64,000 bases of DNA from Stenotrophomonas maltophilia (GTDB lineage Bacteria > Pseudomonadota > Gammaproteobacteria > Xanthomonadales > Xanthomonadaceae): contig NZ_NERD01000002.1 in NCBI RefSeq assembly GCF_002799155.1, forward strand, positions 496,001 to 560,000, given 5' to 3'. Within the stretch, counting starts at the first letter, position 1. Each line of letters opens with the position of its first letter. The position numbers and the translations under genes were made by a program. Below, piece by piece: positions 29,301 to 36,768 of the stretch. The notes under the pieces are model-generated. The model saw nothing but the letters and a program-made list of their open reading frames with translations, was not told the origin of the DNA and did no database searches.

Positions 29301-29375
29301 GGGCGGTTAGCTCAGCGGTAGAGCATTGCCTTCACACGGCAAGGGTCACAGGTTCGATCCCTGTACCGCCCACCA
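29301..29375 (+). tRNA. valT: tRNA-Val(CAC)
   Basis: Acceptor GGGCGGT pairs with ACCGCCC, discriminator A and an encoded CCA. The anticodon stem TTGCC/GGCAA encloses the loop TTCACAC, anticodon CAC. T-arm CAGGTTCGATCCCTG. 75 nt. The symbol is by analogy. Confidence 0.95.
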
Positions 29376-29398
29376 TTTAAAATCAGTGTGTTGCGAAG

Positions 29399-29422
29399 AA
29401 GCCGGCCTTGAGCCGGTTTTTT
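29399..29422 (+). terminator. Terminator of tRNA-Val
   Basis: Stem CCGGC-CTTGA-GCCGG (extended by A-T and G-T pairs) followed by TTTTTT at 29417-29422. Right after it, GTAAGTGCA occurs twice with 11-bp spacing (29424 and 29435). Confidence 0.8.
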
Positions 29423-29547
29423 CGTAAGTGCAAGGTAAGTGCATTAGCAAGGCCAATGCTCGCCACCCAGTTGGCGCCGAATCACTTCCCTGCTTCAATC
29501 AAAGTGCGCAATGACGCGCTATGCGATTGAAGGACGCAGGGGGATCG

Positions 29548-29823
29548 ATGGCCACTTACATGGTTGGTTATGACCTGAACAAGCAGGGCAAGAACTACGA
29601 TGGGTTGATCGCCAAGATCAAGGAAATAAGCAACGGCTTCTGGCATCACCTTGATTCGACTTGGCTCATCGGCCATGCCGGCAACGCAATCACGATCCGC
29701 GAGGCTCTTGAGCCGTACTTGGATGCTGATGACGAACTCCTGGTTGCGCTGTTGACCAAAGGTGACTGGGCTTCGTTCGGTATCAAGGAATCTGGCGCGA
29801 CCTGGCTTCACAACCACCTTTGA
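29548..29823 (+). CDS. Orphan Cas2-fold-like small protein (SinR/VapD-like)
   Basis: A 91-residue protein. The predicted order beta-alpha-beta-alpha-beta (YMVGYDL, YDGLIAKIKEI, HHLDSTWLIG, AITIREALEPYL, ELLVALLT) resembles the ferredoxin-like fold of Cas2 and related small proteins annotated SinR family. The catalytic-type Asp at the end of strand 1 (GYDL) is present. There is no CRISPR array or other cas gene nearby, so a CRISPR role is not supported. I start at ATG 29548, preceded by GGGGG; ATG 29521 would add nine residues. Base composition differs from the core genome. A terminator hairpin follows. Possible nuclease or toxin role is inference. Confidence 0.65.
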   Translation: MATYMVGYDLNKQGKNYDGLIAKIKEISNGFWHHLDSTWLIGHAGNAITIREALEPYLDADDELLVALLTKGDWASFGIKESGATWLHNHL

Positions 29824-29831
29824 ATGAAAGC

Positions 29832-29867
29832 AGGCCCTGCCATGGACGTGCATGGTAGGGCCTTCTC
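29832..29867 (+). terminator. Terminator after the Cas2-like gene
   Basis: 13-bp arms (29832-29844 and 29851-29863, one G-U pair) around GACGTG, followed by TCTCT. A second hairpin AAATCACC/GGTGATTT is at 29869-29892. Confidence 0.75.
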
Positions 29868-29892
29868 TAAATCACCCTCTTTCCGGTGATTT

Positions 29893-30011
29893 ACCGATTG
29901 AGCGATACCCGCAGTGCGCGGCTCCCGGATGCGTCCCACGCTGTGTCGTGACGACCCCCAGTCAGTCCAACCGATCCGCCGCCTGTGCGCCAGACTCTCC
30001 CATGAGCCGAG
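29893..30011. other. Intergenic spacer, nothing recognised
   Basis: Together with the flanking signals it forms the 307-bp gap between the Cas2-like gene and the NdpA-like gene. I see no ORF, RNA or repeat in this part. Confidence 0.5.
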
Positions 30012-30052
30012 TGTAGGGTTTTACCTACATCAGATCAGGGGCTCTACCTACA
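30012..30052 (+). promoter_or_regulatory. Candidate operator upstream of the NdpA-like operon
   Basis: Inverted repeat TGTAGG-GTTTTA-CCTACA (30012-30029) with a third half-site CCTACA at 30047-30052; TACCTACATC occurs twice, 23 bp apart. It lies about 80-120 bp before the first gene of the operon. A regulator is not known. Confidence 0.5.
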
Positions 30053-30130
30053 TCTACTCGTGAAGAAGCTGCATCAGACTGACAACGACTCTACGCCGAT
30101 AGAGTACGTATCCACTGATAAGGGGGCAGC

Positions 30131-31186
30131 ATGGGTTTTCTGAGTGACGAGGAGATTGCATCTCTTCGGATTGCAAAGATGAACTATCAGATCGTTGGCG
30201 ATGAGGAGTTCGCTCCTCGGCGACCGATGGCAAATGTCGAGTTCGAGCACTTCTTCTTGGCTCGCATTGCGGACATGGACGCATCATCGCTGTTTAGGTT
30301 CTCAGAGCACTCCGCTGCCCGTGATCTCGTTCAACGCATTGCCTCGGAACGTGTTCAGTTTGCCCAGGGTGGCGTGCAGCTGGCGCGAGATTTTCATGGC
30401 CGTCATGTGGGGCAAAGTTCGTCTGGGGCATTCTTCTTCTTTGAGCTGCATGTGGCAGACGAATCGGTCCGCCTGTACTCAATGCTCAAGTACGACTATC
30501 GCGAGGTTCTTGCACCGTCCAGATCGAATGGCTCCAGGCAGCTGAGGAAGATCGTTGAGGCTTTCGTTCAGGATAAGCGCGCCCTGCAGAAGTCATGCTT
30601 GATAAGAGTAAGGGACGGGATTGCAGAGGATGAGATTTCGGCACGTGATCGAAATGGGAAGTCGCCCGATATCACTGACTTCTTCTCCGCCTTTCTCAGC
30701 GTAGAGAGATCACGAGACGACAAGGAGCTTAATCAGCAGGTCTATTTGGCCCTCACAGATGTTCTAAAGAGTCACCAAGAACTTCTACCGGAGGGGGGCA
30801 TATCGCAGGCCCTTGCGGTGGCTAGAGAGCGGCTTCGCACTGCGTCAGTGATCAGTGATTCAACGGCGCTTGACGCGCTGATGCTGGCAGCGGGGCGTCC
30901 GAGTGAGCCGGAATTTGCTGAGTCGCTGGAGAAGGCTCTGCAGCGTTCCATGAAGAGGCGCAAAGTCTCAGGCCTTGAGTTTGCGCCAGACGAGAATGTC
31001 CTGAAGAAATCGGTTAGGAAGAAGCTCTCCACCAAGGAAGGGGTCAACCTGGATTACCCTCAGTATCTGGAGGGATCACGTGTAACAATGGAGGACCTTC
31101 CGACAGGTGGACGCAAGATCACTATCACGACCGACCGCCTGGAGGTCGACAAAGTTGTCTCCGAGACCGCTCGCGCGCTTCGTTAA
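30131..31186 (+). CDS. NdpA/YejK-like nucleoid-associated protein
   Basis: A 351-residue protein that I match by eye to the 37-kDa nucleoid-associated (NdpA/YejK, PF04245) family. Resemblances are an N-terminal region with FFFFELHVADESVRLYSMLKYD, the central DFFSAFLSVERSRDDKELNQQV (YejK: DFF..FLG..), and the C-terminal LSTKEGVNLDYPQYLEGSRVTMEDLPTGGRKITITTD (YejK: GGLTINFDAMLLGERIFWD). Known members bind double-stranded DNA. Codon use, with many AGA, AGG and ATA-type codons and TTT/ATT, and lower GC suggest transfer. AGGGGG precedes ATG 30131. It overlaps the next gene by 32 bp, so the pair is probably translationally coupled. A role in defence is inference. Confidence 0.65.
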   Translation: MGFLSDEEIASLRIAKMNYQIVGDEEFAPRRPMANVEFEHFFLARIADMDASSLFRFSEHSAARDLVQRIASERVQFAQGGVQLARDFHGRHVGQSSSGAFFFFELHVADESVRLYSMLKYDYREVLAPSRSNGSRQLRKIVEAFVQDKRALQKSCLIRVRDGIAEDEISARDRNGKSPDITDFFSAFLSVERSRDDKELNQQVYLALTDVLKSHQELLPEGGISQALAVARERLRTASVISDSTALDALMLAAGRPSEPEFAESLEKALQRSMKRRKVSGLEFAPDENVLKKSVRKKLSTKEGVNLDYPQYLEGSRVTMEDLPTGGRKITITTDRLEVDKVVSETARALR

Positions 31187-32462
31187 CAACCTGCTCGCTG
31201 CCCAAGCGGCATCCGTCACTGAAACCGGTGACGGTCCGCTAGTACTGCATGGAGTCAGCTTGCAGGCCGCTGCCGACCTGCGGGAATTAGCGGAGGACAT
31301 TGGTTGGTCGTGCACTTTGGTCGATTGCTCGGACATGGAGGTCACTCTCGGTGACTTGAGTGATTACTGCGAGCCTTTTGATGTACGAATAGAGAAGATT
31401 GGTTCGCCTGACGAGCTTCTCTTTATCTCGGCGCCTGGATTCCGAGAATGGTTGGAGGGGCGCCCTTGCGGTAAAGCTCGTTATGCAGGAGCCACAGTTG
31501 GCTTTGAGACCGAGTCCTTTCTGCTCTTGGCGGCGGAGGATGAATCGCGCGAATTCACGCCAGGCTTAGAGCGTAGGAGTCCGAGGGCGGTCGTCAAATC
31601 CATGGGTGAAACGCCTTTGCTCGCTGCGGACATTCGGCCGTACATTCTTGTGGGCTCGAATCATCCATGGTCGCAGCCGGCGTTCGGTATTTGGCTCGAG
31701 GTTGCGCTGCCGCGGCTAATGGTCGCATTGGCTACGGAGGTGAACTACGTCAGTTCAGAGATAGATTTTGCCGGTCCACCCAAAGTCACGCTTGAAGGGA
31801 TCGACGTGTATGAGCCGGCAAAACTAGGCGCGGATGCCTTTCTTGCGTTGCAGTCTGCCGCCAAGTGGGTCTACGAAGTTGACCGAGAGGTCGAGACCCG
31901 GAAGAAGCTCTTCGGGATCGAGTTCGCAAGATCCATCAAGAGCCGCGCAAGGGCGTATGGCGCTTTTGGTGAGGGATGCAGCGATGCACTCGAAGGGGCA
32001 AGGATCGCACATCAGTTTGGACTTGCTGAAGTAAGCAGAGACGCATTGAAGTCTATGGCGGATCTCAGAAAGTCCGTAGCAGATGAGACAACGAAGATCG
32101 CGGATGCGACGCGTCAGCTCTCACTGAGCATTGCGGGTGCAATGTTCTACGGTCTGGGTTTGATTGCTGCACGCCTAGGGTCTGCTACCAACCTATATCT
32201 GCTTGATGCCATGGCGGTTGTTGGCTTGGGATACGTGGCGGCAATCATATGGATCACTCATAAGAATCTGAAGCAGCAAGAGGACTTGCGCAAAAGATGG
32301 AGGGGTAAGTTCTACGAGTTTCTTCGTACGGAGGACTACAGGACCATGGTCACAGAGCCTCTAGAGAAGTCCGAGGGCTCACTGCGATTCGCAATGATGT
32401 GCGCTGGGGCTTTGTCGTTCTTGTTGTTCCTCGTGGTGGTTGTACACAATCACGTTGCTTGA
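31155..32462 (+). CDS. Unknown protein with three C-terminal membrane segments
   Basis: About 435 residues; no family recognised. I place the start at TTG 31155, which has GGAGG nine bases upstream (31141-31145) inside the NdpA-like gene; GTG 31107 would add 16 residues and lies deeper in the overlap. The first 320 residues are soluble and mixed alpha/beta, with a charged helical stretch (DREVETRKKLFGIEFARSIKSRARAYGAF) and a likely coiled segment (ALKSMADLRKSVADETTKIADATRQL). Then come membrane helices LSIAGAMFYGLGLIAARL and YLLDAMAVVGLGYVAAIIW, a basic loop (KNLKQQEDLRKRWRGK), and a last helix AMMCAGALSFLLFLVVVV. The design, a cytosolic sensor or enzyme with a membrane end, resembles effectors of abortive-infection systems; that is inference. 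Confidence 0.7.
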   Translation: MSPRPLARFVNNLLAAQAASVTETGDGPLVLHGVSLQAAADLRELAEDIGWSCTLVDCSDMEVTLGDLSDYCEPFDVRIEKIGSPDELLFISAPGFREWLEGRPCGKARYAGATVGFETESFLLLAAEDESREFTPGLERRSPRAVVKSMGETPLLAADIRPYILVGSNHPWSQPAFGIWLEVALPRLMVALATEVNYVSSEIDFAGPPKVTLEGIDVYEPAKLGADAFLALQSAAKWVYEVDREVETRKKLFGIEFARSIKSRARAYGAFGEGCSDALEGARIAHQFGLAEVSRDALKSMADLRKSVADETTKIADATRQLSLSIAGAMFYGLGLIAARLGSATNLYLLDAMAVVGLGYVAAIIWITHKNLKQQEDLRKRWRGKFYEFLRTEDYRTMVTEPLEKSEGSLRFAMMCAGALSFLLFLVVVVHNHVA

Positions 32463-32520
32463 TTAACCAGGGAGGCCGAGCGGGGCCGCCAGGTCGCCAG
32501 CGCTAGGTGCGCGGATCCGC

Positions 32521-32829
32521 TCAGATCTCCCTCGCCGCGTCGACTGGCTCAGTGGAAGTGCTGTTCGTCCGGGTCTTCATCTTCAAGCGGATGGCAGACC
32601 TGGACTCATCGGTCGGCGTGGCCCCGAGCTTGGAGAGCATCGCGCTGAGCGCGTGCGTGGACGATACGCTCAGGTCCTCGCCCGTCTCCATGCGTGCGGC
32701 GAGGATGCACACCTGGCGTAGCAATAGGCGGTGGGCGGCATTGAACCAGGGCATGTTCGAGACGCACTCCTTCCAAACCCGAACCTGTGCGGCGGTCATG
32801 CCTTTGTAGGGCGTACCGATGGGGGCAGG
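32521..32829 (-). pseudogene. Truncated phage terminase small subunit (P27-like) remnant
   Basis: The frame is open from 32829 (after an in-frame TGA at 32830-32832) to 32521; the first ATG is at 32799. It reads PIGTPYKGMTAAQVRVWKECV, then HRLLLRQVCILAARMETGE and ALSAMLSKLGATPTDESRS, the pattern of P27-type terminase small subunits. The usual N-terminal DNA-binding part is missing, and no large subunit or other phage gene follows. I read it as debris of a prophage that brought the preceding genes or neighboured them. Confidence 0.55.
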
Positions 32830-32858
32830 TCAGGATTCAGCCGCAAGCGCACATCGCA

Positions 32859-34863: not shown

Positions 34864-35961
34864 TCAGGCCATGCGCGGCGATGCCTGCTGTTGTGCCTGT
34901 TGTTCGTCCTGCGTCGGTCGGCTTGCGTCGCGGGATTGCTGCTGCACGTTGGCCTGCTGATACAGCGTATCCGCGTCGCCCTGCTGCGTATCGAGCAGGG
35001 ACAGGCGCTGGCGATTGGCGGCAGGGTCCGGCGAGGCGGTGTCGCCGCTGCGATGCAGGAATACGTAGCCGGGTACCTCGGCGGTGCTGTTTGAACTGAA
35101 TGCCACGTGCAGCGTGTCCTTTTCGCTGAAGCCGGCCTGCACCGCCGCGTGGGTCAGATGGCCGGCCAGGCGTTCATGCTCCTGTCCGGGGGGCAGTCCC
35201 TGCTGTTCGCTGGCCTGGACGAGTGCGGTGCGCACCTTCTGGTCCAAGGCATGAAGGCTGTGCCCCGGTGCGCGCGCGTCCGCAGCCAGACGCTCGCCCA
35301 AGGGGCCATCAATGCCATCGGTTTCGCTGAGCAGACGCTGCTTCAAGCTGCGCTCGGGCAGGGGATGAGTGATGGTGCGGTTGAGTTCGCTGTTGGGGAA
35401 AGGGGGCTCAATGCTGTCCACGCCATGGATGTTGCGCAGCGGACGATAGCCGTCCTTGCCCTGTGACTGGACGCCCAGCGGAATGCGGACATCGGGCAGC
35501 AATTGCCCAACAGGGCCGCCGATGCTGTTCACGTCCAGGCTCTGCTTGCGCTGGATACCCGCATGATTCAATGCACCCCAGGTGAAGTCCACGCAGTTGT
35601 GACGCACGTCGGCATAGTGCTTGCTGAAGCCGTGCGCTACTGGATCGTCGCCGAACGCTTTGAGCTTGTTGTACTGTGCTTCGGTGATTTCCAGAGAGCG
35701 CGTGTAATGCGGGTTCTTATAGGTCTTTGCATCGTTGACTACGATGTCACCTGGGCCGTTCATGCTGCCGTGCTCGATCGGTGCAAAGCCGTAGCTTGCC
35801 GGATCCTTTCCCGGTGCTCGAAGGACGTAGAACATGTGTCCCGGCCCGGACGTCTGCGCCGAGCCATCAGGATTGCGCAGCGGTTGCTGCGTAACGGGGT
35901 GGAGAAGAGGTGTTCCCGGTGCCGCAATGACGATATCGACGATGTAGCGTGGCTTGTCCAT
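34864..35961 (-). CDS. Putative Xanthomonadales T4SS effector (XVIPCD)
   Basis: A 365-residue protein of two parts. The N-terminal part has H42 (GPGHMFYVLR) and C123 (VRHNCVDFTWGALNHAGI), an order that fits a circularly permuted papain/NlpC-like fold, so a peptidase or amidase activity is plausible. The C-terminal region (about 234-345) fits the XVIPCD secretion signal: GHSLHALDQKVRTAL, QEHERLAGHLTHAAVQAGF, HVAFSSNSTAEVPGYVFLH and a Gln-rich tail. Such X-Tfe proteins are injected into rival bacteria by the VirB/D4 system. AGGAGG precedes the ATG at some distance. The lipoprotein gene directly upstream is the likely immunity partner. Confidence 0.8.
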   Translation of the reverse strand: MDKPRYIVDIVIAAPGTPLLHPVTQQPLRNPDGSAQTSGPGHMFYVLRAPGKDPASYGFAPIEHGSMNGPGDIVVNDAKTYKNPHYTRSLEITEAQYNKLKAFGDDPVAHGFSKHYADVRHNCVDFTWGALNHAGIQRKQSLDVNSIGGPVGQLLPDVRIPLGVQSQGKDGYRPLRNIHGVDSIEPPFPNSELNRTITHPLPERSLKQRLLSETDGIDGPLGERLAADARAPGHSLHALDQKVRTALVQASEQQGLPPGQEHERLAGHLTHAAVQAGFSEKDTLHVAFSSNSTAEVPGYVFLHRSGDTASPDPAANRQRLSLLDTQQGDADTLYQQANVQQQSRDASRPTQDEQQAQQQASPRMA

Positions 35962-36002
35962 GTGCGTGGTGATCCTCCTGGAAGGTGTACGAAGGCGCTG
36001 CG

Positions 36003-36578
36003 CTACTTGGCGAGCGGACGCGATTCGTGAATCAGTATCCTGGCGCTTGCGCCACGAAGTGGTGCGATGTCTTCAACCGTGCTGATCTGTACGCGGTAGC
36101 GATTTTGCGCCTGCAACGGCAGCAGCGCGACATGGAGTCGATAGGCCCCATCGCTGCCTCGTTGGGTCTGGGCGTAGTTCAGGCCCTTACCGCGGTGCCA
36201 GTCTGGCAGTGGCTGGCCAGATTGCGACTGTGCGATCTGGTAGGCGTCGGGGCTTGCCAGCGACTGCCAAGTGCCGCCGGACCATTGCTGAAGTCCAACG
36301 CGTAAAGGAATGTGCAGGTCGCGTGGAGAAGCAGCATCTGGCGATGAGGAAACGTGCTGCAGATCCAGCTCCACCGCATATGTACGGTAGCTGGCAAAAT
36401 TGCGCGCCGTGGTCTCGAACTCGAACTGCAGCTGCTGGCCGGGCGTGTCCACGGCGATGGGCTGTGAGAGTTCCAGCGGCTCTGGCGGTGGGGGCGGCCC
36501 CTTGTCGGCGCAGGCGGCAAGCAGCGCGGTCAGGCCGAGCAGGCTGATGCGCAGCCGGCGTGTGATGCGGGTGGTCAT
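36003..36578 (-). CDS. Lipoprotein, probable immunity protein (X-Tfi)
   Basis: A 191-residue lipoprotein: MTTRITRRLRISLLGLTALLAAC with lipobox LAAC, then a Pro-rich linker and a beta-rich domain (LQFEFETTARNFASYRTYAVELDL, YRLHVALLPLQAQNRYRVQIS). AGAGGGATCCGC stands before ATG 36578. It is 41 bp upstream of the effector in the same direction. X-Tfi immunity proteins are typically periplasmic lipoproteins beside the effector, so this is the expected partner; the sequence itself carries no family name I recognise. Confidence 0.72.
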   Translation of the reverse strand: MTTRITRRLRISLLGLTALLAACADKGPPPPPEPLELSQPIAVDTPGQQLQFEFETTARNFASYRTYAVELDLQHVSSSPDAASPRDLHIPLRVGLQQWSGGTWQSLASPDAYQIAQSQSGQPLPDWHRGKGLNYAQTQRGSDGAYRLHVALLPLQAQNRYRVQISTVEDIAPLRGASARILIHESRPLAK

Positions 36579-36768
36579 GCGGATCCCTCTGGCTCCTTGC
36601 CGTTGCCATCTGAACCCTAACGTTGGCGAGGCGGTGCCTGCAAGCGCCGGGACCGCGGTGCGGTGCATTCACATGTCACCGCTGGAGGCGAGCCCCTGCG
36701 TCACCGTGTCGCAGGGGACAAACCCTGAACGGGGTCCAAGGTTGATCGTGGCCCCGTAGAATGGCGGC

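Follow-up and report, generated by a model that had tools for sequence, protein, structure and literature searches.

Two overlapping genes in an accessory insert of Stenotrophomonas maltophilia probably make up a mobile, two-component anti-phage defence system. They lie in a 64,000-nucleotide stretch of contig NZ_NERD01000002.1 (assembly GCF_002799155.1, positions 496,001 to 560,000), hereafter called the window, whose own numbering is used throughout. Gene 1 (30131..31186, stop included, + strand) starts with ATG and codes for a 351-residue protein of the NA37/YejK family, and gene 2 (31155..32462, + strand) starts with TTG and codes for a putative membrane protein of 435 residues. NA37/YejK proteins are nucleoid-associated proteins and topoisomerase regulators whose function is little known. 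As far as can be judged from sequences, the two genes are conserved as a pair, overlap in a shifted frame in the main clade, are inherited jointly, travel on mobile elements and lie close to defence genes at several loci, and predicted membrane segments are found in gene 2. The defence function that we infer from this context is well supported by it.

A profile scan of genome contigs with gene 2 yielded 44 loci, on contigs titled Stenotrophomonas, Pseudomonas, Rhodanobacter, Rhizobium, Sphingomonas, Devosia and others. An NA37 gene is found directly upstream on the same strand at 43 of them, the exception (L042) being a truncated gene 2 remnant. Some of these loci are near-duplicates (L037/L038 and L031/L046), and two have a split gene, gene 1 in L007 and gene 2 in L029. 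With the two broken loci and two of the duplicates set aside (L007, L029, L038 and L046), the pairwise distances of the two proteins correlate with an r of 0.966 over 40 loci, a value to which shared host phylogeny contributes and which none of 5000 permutations equalled. Among ten further loci, the NA37 gene is present at all three that were found via gene 2, and gene 2 is detected by profile, with 21-116 bits, at six of the seven found via NA37 (7 of 250 genomes). At the seventh, L112, a 491-residue open reading frame (ORF) with coiled-coil and membrane segments occupies the place of gene 2. Among the loci inspected, every complete gene 2 was accompanied by gene 1; the copies of L042 and of the L067 plasmid lack the beginning of gene 2. 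Near-duplicate loci aside, no third gene was seen to be kept beside the pair. Gene 2 is rare: at the thresholds used, and with its own genome included, it was detected in 2 of 101 relatives, 4 of 398 genomes of the phylum and 1 of 369 genomes of the class. A relative with 81% identity to gene 2 is found in a genome of the same genus (G015), probably the one that also supplies L003, a contig of a metagenome-assembled genome of Stenotrophomonas maltophilia.

The pair also occurs on phages and plasmids. Both genes are present in all four viral contigs, and in the Thiobacimonas phage vB_ThpS-P1, which has Mu-like genes, they are genes 052/051, near a Cro/CI regulator. A 208-residue repressor-like ORF (L104:3280-3906) lies directly 5' of the pair in viral contig L104, and a repressor-like gene is likewise found 5' of it in L112, as expected of prophage cargo. 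Among plasmid records, 11 encode relatives of gene 2 and 12 encode relatives of gene 1. Five of the eight plasmid regions inspected harbour both genes (Pantoea, Rhizobium, pKAZ5, Methylocystis and Xanthomonas, with only 31 bits for gene 2 of the last). The copy on a Klebsiella plasmid comprises gene 2 without gene 1, behind IS26, that on a Bradyrhizobium plasmid a broken gene 1 without gene 2, and gene 2 is broken on a Sinorhizobium plasmid. The preliminary description of the window, made from its letters alone, had made its proposal depend on the two genes being conserved together, and this is what the genome loci, the phage, the viral contigs and the plasmids display.

The coupling of the two genes reported in that description, i.e. 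their overlap, the TTG start and the ribosome-binding site, was recovered in full. A GGAGG motif for gene 2 (31141..31145, + strand) is located within gene 1, the end of which overlaps gene 2 by 32 bp in a shifted frame (31155..31186, + strand). A longer gene 2 is possible, with a GTG start at 31107 and an 80-bp overlap; the relatives favour the TTG at 31155. Gene 2 is in one and the same relative shifted frame in 44 of 44 scorable rows, window included. With starts picked within an overlap of 15-47 bp, a rule on which the frame count does not depend, the overlap measures 32 bp in 19 rows, 23 in seven, 38 in six, 35 and 29 in four each, 44 in three and 17 in one, and the starts in the same rows are TTG (28), ATG (15) and GTG (1). 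Many relatives have a Shine-Dalgarno-like motif ahead of the gene 2 start. The frame of the main clade is kept at 10 of 14 further loci, the others being L069, L105, L117 and L118, and several of the most divergent loci have 4-bp overlaps or short gaps between the genes. Of the nine NA37 relatives at the greatest distance in the alignment (P0085-P0093), all but P0089 stop before the tail that overlaps gene 2. As the divergent loci retain the pair but not always the overlap, the long overlap is a mark of the main clade and the pairing is older.

Both proteins largely conform to what was first proposed for them. The product of gene 1 matches the Pfam family NA37 (PF04245) with 37.6 bits, for a cut-off of 24.6, over positions 44-299 of the 325 of the profile, and its predicted model has the YejK fold, with YejK (9be2) as the best match (Foldseek E 1e-8); its description as NdpA/YejK-like is thus confirmed. 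It is the only NA37 match in its own genome. As for gene 2, membership of a housekeeping family had been raised as a possibility; none was matched, and no credible family was found for it in Pfam, NCBIfam, PADLOC or PHROGs (best E 0.12). Hydropathy analysis at a lenient threshold predicts membrane segments at residues 321-339, 349-367 and 412-430. The AlphaFold2 model (mean predicted local distance difference test score 86.9, predicted template modelling score 0.66) comprises an N-terminal part (residues 1-265) and a long helix (267-342), and a conserved loop is found at about 368-411. Hydropathy and model therefore agree with the initial picture of a soluble N-terminal part and three C-terminal membrane helices. 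A weak additional hydrophobic segment (176-194) belongs to a helix of the N-terminal part in the model. Over 40 gene 2 homologues, window included, three segments are predicted in 29, four in nine, two in one and five in one.

To describe the neighbourhood of the pair, we scanned the neighbouring ORFs of 33 loci with PADLOC (140 ORFs of 15 loci and 128 ORFs of 18 loci), leaving aside those shorter than 165 or longer than 1000 residues. In the 18-locus set (A6), which covered 5.5 kb, L003, L015, L020, L033 and nine further ORFs were excluded. The thresholds were E 1e-10 for sets A4 and A5 and 1e-20 for A6, and the 25 commonest families were considered, so that the counts are lower bounds. Named defence genes were traced at no fewer than 6 of the 33 loci, and none was traced at 27. 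In L041 and L031, Gabija A and B are found 1.5-2 kb behind gene 2; in L013, Septu A and B begin 0.5 kb behind it, and in L008 the modification and restriction subunits of a type I system begin 0.2 kb behind it. PtuA and a type II methylase are near the pair in L034, and an AriA-like gene and PDC-S73 in L032. Family-level matches to AbiEi, PDC-S21, a second PtuA/PtuB set and SspA/DndA were assigned to no locus and stand outside the count. On the Methylocystis (M. heyeri) plasmid, the pair is adjoined by two DUF262 genes as well as by genes with an anti-phage annotation. An integrase domain was detected in 10 of the 268 neighbouring ORFs (5 of 140 and 5 of 128). The pair is thus present near known defence genes as well as on phages and plasmids, in agreement with what a defence role had been taken to predict. 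It is in the identity of these neighbours and in their closeness that the weight of the neighbourhood evidence lies.

In the window, the pair is carried by a 3.46-kb insert with a low guanine plus cytosine (GC) content, which stretches from a tRNA-Val gene to the right flank (29376..32830). The tRNA-Val(CAC) gene that forms its left border (29301..29375, + strand) was identified with ARAGORN and Rfam and is an integration hotspot in the genus. The right edge, at about 32830, is approximate; in L154 and L163, which are free of the insert, the right flank resumes some 60-65 bp past tRNA-Val. The GC content is 0.559 across 29376-32830 vs 0.672 in the remaining window, and that at third codon positions (GC3) is 0.60-0.61 for the gene pair and 0.92, 0.84 and 0.82 for the flanking genes 28833, 27880 and 32862. 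The preliminary description was thus right about an accessory insert behind tRNA-Val. Its mention of phage debris has a weak and sole basis in a 92-residue ORF (32521-32799, - strand), the Terminase_7 match of which is sub-threshold (17.2 bits, for a cut-off of 27). The DNA around it (32548-32820) has copies with about 85% identity in L152 and L160, again behind tRNA-Val, and may thus represent a module shared by elements at this site. Between tRNA-Val and the pair, a 91-residue ORF (29548-29820, + strand) matches phrog_1090, a family of unknown function, over nearly its whole length (E 4e-22); it may be a Cas2-like or SinR-type small protein, and it was not seen at the corresponding place in L003. 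Inspection of the sequence 5' of gene 1 revealed a perfect palindrome, TGTAGG-N6-CCTACA (30012..30029), a candidate operator present in a single copy in its genome, and a second inverted repeat (30088-30105). L003 likewise has GTAGG-N6-CCTAC 5' of its gene 1. A search for attachment sites at the insert revealed no direct repeat that clearly corresponds to the tRNA end, the promoter and terminator scans gave nothing beyond the level obtained with shuffled sequences, and the tRNA alone reached its cut-off in the scan for RNA families (Rfam). Farther along the window, at 34864-36668 (- strand), an X-Tfes XVIPCD-domain protein, of the type IV secretion system effector type, adjoins a lipoprotein-like ORF (36003-36668). 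Such an arrangement is typical of antibacterial effectors and their immunity proteins. The GC3 of the XVIPCD gene at 34864 is 0.74.

The tRNA-Val(CAC) site is a hotspot with variable cargo in the genus. Of 61 genus genomes, 59 have a match to the tRNA with its left flank; in G015 and G041 the match covers a tRNA only. Among the regions behind tRNA-Val taken from 20 relatives, the right flank follows the tRNA directly in L154 and L163 and lies 1.9-13 kb from it in L149, L150, L152, L153, L156 and L160. In the remaining relatives, part of the right flank is lost or has no close match. When 10 ORFs from four inserts were scanned, three matched: L153 encodes a DRT4/6 reverse transcriptase (E 4.5e-184), L149 a type IV restriction/HEC-06 protein and L160 a PDC-M04A protein. 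The single ORF scanned in the L152 insert had no match. The L156 insert opens with the same ORFs as L149. Several ORFs of the inserts in L149, L153, L156 and L160 are unassigned. L003 holds the pair at the same tRNA-Val, and its DNA from the tRNA to gene 1 is largely unrelated to that of the window, which makes the pair, rather than the surrounding DNA, the shared unit. The window insert is a mosaic, other pieces of which turn up separately among the further inserts found at this tRNA. In Stenotrophomonas, this site is a hotspot worth mining for defence genes.

How might such a system operate? The NA37 protein would be the nucleic-acid-side component, engaging incoming or replicating phage DNA or responding to a change in DNA topology. 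The gene 2 protein would be its membrane partner, with a cytosolic domain, a long helical stalk, three membrane helices and almost nothing in the periplasm, and the two proteins would form a complex at the inner membrane. In the leading model, which resembles Kiwa, the membrane protein would hold the NA37 protein at the entry site of phage DNA, and binding by the latter would then stop the copying or transcription of that DNA. If the pair does serve defence, we give such DNA blocking at the membrane somewhat less than an even chance. Nearly as likely, engagement of the NA37 protein might make the membrane part an effector of cell arrest, and within the defence reading an abortive infection of this kind is a serious contender. 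More tentatively, the pair might represent a widespread, uncatalogued immune system in which a nucleoid-associated protein serves as the phage sensor, of DNA or of topology, and acts only via a dedicated membrane protein encoded by an adjoining, mostly overlapping gene; we would sooner doubt this broader proposal than adopt it.

Some observations weigh against these ideas. The net charge of the gene 1 protein is about -1, and in the accessible part of the report on NdpA2, the NA37 member of Pseudomonas aeruginosa, that protein alone shifted no DNA (PMC8565334); both bear on the predicted DNA binding. In a control made with the same genomes, which covered 125 ORFs from 11 of 30 regions plus one ORF from a twelfth, neither Gabija nor Septu nor restriction-modification genes were found; seven families were matched, with a best E of 2e-38 (mad3). 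The comparison of named systems at 6 or more of 33 loci with 0 of 11 regions in this small control gives a p of about 0.16, and the neighbourhood control therefore cannot stand alone.

Several other explanations can be put forward for the pair, one of which is a form of the defence reading itself. In abortive infection, the NA37 protein would sense phage DNA or a topology change and release or activate gene 2, the helices of which would permeabilise or depolarise the inner membrane so that the infected cell stops. A sensor with a membrane effector is a common layout of abortive systems, and the pair would fit it by its three membrane segments after a long helix, by the shortness of the loops on one side, by the lack of any recognised enzyme motif and by the defence genes close to it. 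However, gene 2 matches no known pore or transmembrane-effector family, and the best structural matches of its helical part are designed or generic helical bundles. Taken over all readings, and as a share of the probability given to defence, this mechanism is possible and still rather unlikely. A module for the regulation or maintenance of mobile elements would do without any immune role: the NA37 protein would alter silencing or topoisomerase activity and thereby allow the element to be expressed or to move, as NdpA2 does on the P. aeruginosa element PAPI-1, and gene 2 would modulate it from the membrane. The residence of the pair on phages, on plasmids and in a tRNA insert agrees with this, as do the NA37 proteins that take part in the transfer of an integrative and conjugative element (ICE; NdpA2/TprA, in the accessible part of PMC8565334) or act on topoisomerases (YejK and StaR, PMC10053502). 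Yet neither a transfer gene nor an integration gene could be recognised within the window insert, the partner of NdpA2 is a ribbon-helix-helix regulator and not a membrane protein, and a role in mobility would leave the defence neighbours unexplained. Moreover, the neighbours of the pair differ from locus to locus, near-duplicates aside, which suggests that it serves no one type of element. We consider such a module improbable.

A toxin-antitoxin or addiction pair, in which gene 2 would be a membrane toxin restrained by the NA37 protein and the overlap would fix their ratio, could account for the strict pairing and coupling, for the candidate operator 5' of gene 1 and for the fact that a complete gene 2 is never without gene 1 among the loci inspected. 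Nevertheless, both proteins are large for this, with 351 and 435 residues, neither matches a toxin-antitoxin family, and the palindrome occurs at only 2 of the 44 loci, window included, which leaves this explanation with a slight chance. It might finally be argued that unrelated accessory genes came to overlap by chance in a mosaic insert, the more so as L003 shares the pair but little of the preceding DNA. The conservation of the pair refutes this, as it is found in one frame at 43 of 44 genome loci and is kept by plasmids, the phage and viral contigs, and we regard chance as next to negligible. A mobile defence system thus appears to us the most plausible function of the pair.

As a conserved unit found on phages, on plasmids and in tRNA inserts, the NA37-membrane pair amounts to a concrete, clonable two-gene unit. 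It raises the question of whether nucleoid proteins act as phage sensors, and that of whether membrane-anchored DNA blocking in the style of Kiwa arose more than once. If the sensor reading is true, the pair would connect nucleoid proteins with membrane-based immunity in a way not seen before, and its membrane protein would belong to a family that resembles none described so far.

Among known proteins, YejK, NdpA and StaR belong to the same Pfam family as gene 1, YejK being its best fold match, and YejK and StaR act on topoisomerases (PMC10053502). Genes of this type differ from the pair: no same-strand membrane-protein ORF lies directly behind the NA37 genes with the highest family scores, taken as an outgroup (L059-L061), and distant relatives lack the overlap tail. 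In the genome of L061, a second NA37 copy on the reverse strand (L062) is followed, 15 bp behind, by a 382-residue ORF that has a long soluble part and, near its end, two hydrophobic segments (about 279-312 and 354-384). Its sequence does not resemble that of gene 2 (E 0.07, negative score). The gene 2 profile matched nothing in L059-L062, four loci that the gene 1 profile missed too. L062 is possibly an independent NA37-membrane pair; as its partner differs from gene 2, accessory NA37 genes may have acquired membrane proteins of various kinds, and unrelated ones may have been recruited more than once. The NdpA2-TprA unit of the ICE PAPI-1 is likewise led by an NA37 gene and made of two genes on a mobile element, but its partner is a ribbon-helix-helix transcription factor and its role is in ICE transfer, according to the accessible part of the source (PMC8565334). 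In an Acidithiobacillus genome, an element located at tRNA-Met carries an NdpA gene, with a helicase, a methylase and an addiction module close by, as the portion available of PMC10561277 has it.

Defence systems offer closer parallels. In the literature searched, Kiwa included, no paper on an NA37-membrane gene pair was found, subscription journals being covered to a small extent. To that extent the earlier assertion that no described system has exactly this pair stands; it has to be tempered by the YejK domain that is reported in a protective unit of Escherichia coli. As given in the accessible part of the DefensePredictor study (PMC13092281), the YejK nucleoid-associated domain is among ten function-defined domains new to defence validation, in protective E. 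coli units, and the figure legend for that group defines the labels 'transmembrane' and 'coiled-coil'. The likeness of this system to the pair is that of a YejK-type domain shared with gene 1, and the comparison is one of domain names only, on the basis of the same partial source. The DefensePredictor unit could be a cousin of the pair, membrane partner included. Searching E. coli genomes at the DNA level with three relatives from plasmids gave no match, at a low power for such divergence.

The likeness to Kiwa is one of layout, with two genes that code for a membrane protein (KwaA) and a cytosolic, DNA-side protein (KwaB). In Kiwa, the membrane part recruits KwaB to the site of injection, and KwaB there binds DNA without cutting it, as described in the accessible part of PMC12904381. 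Membership of the Kiwa family was considered and rejected, as gene 1 has no match to PF16162 or to the PADLOC KwaB profile at E <= 1, and gene 2 has no PADLOC match, KwaA included, at E <= 1. KwaB (PF16162) was not found in the window's own genome by a genome-level search that matches 11 of 299 genomes elsewhere, and it was not found in 30 genomes that hold the pair. An hhalign comparison of NA37 with KwaB gave no match in a run that was underpowered, as it also failed on the high-scoring NA37 set. The pair is thus best read, by analogy, as Kiwa-like in its layout, yet not as a member of Kiwa.

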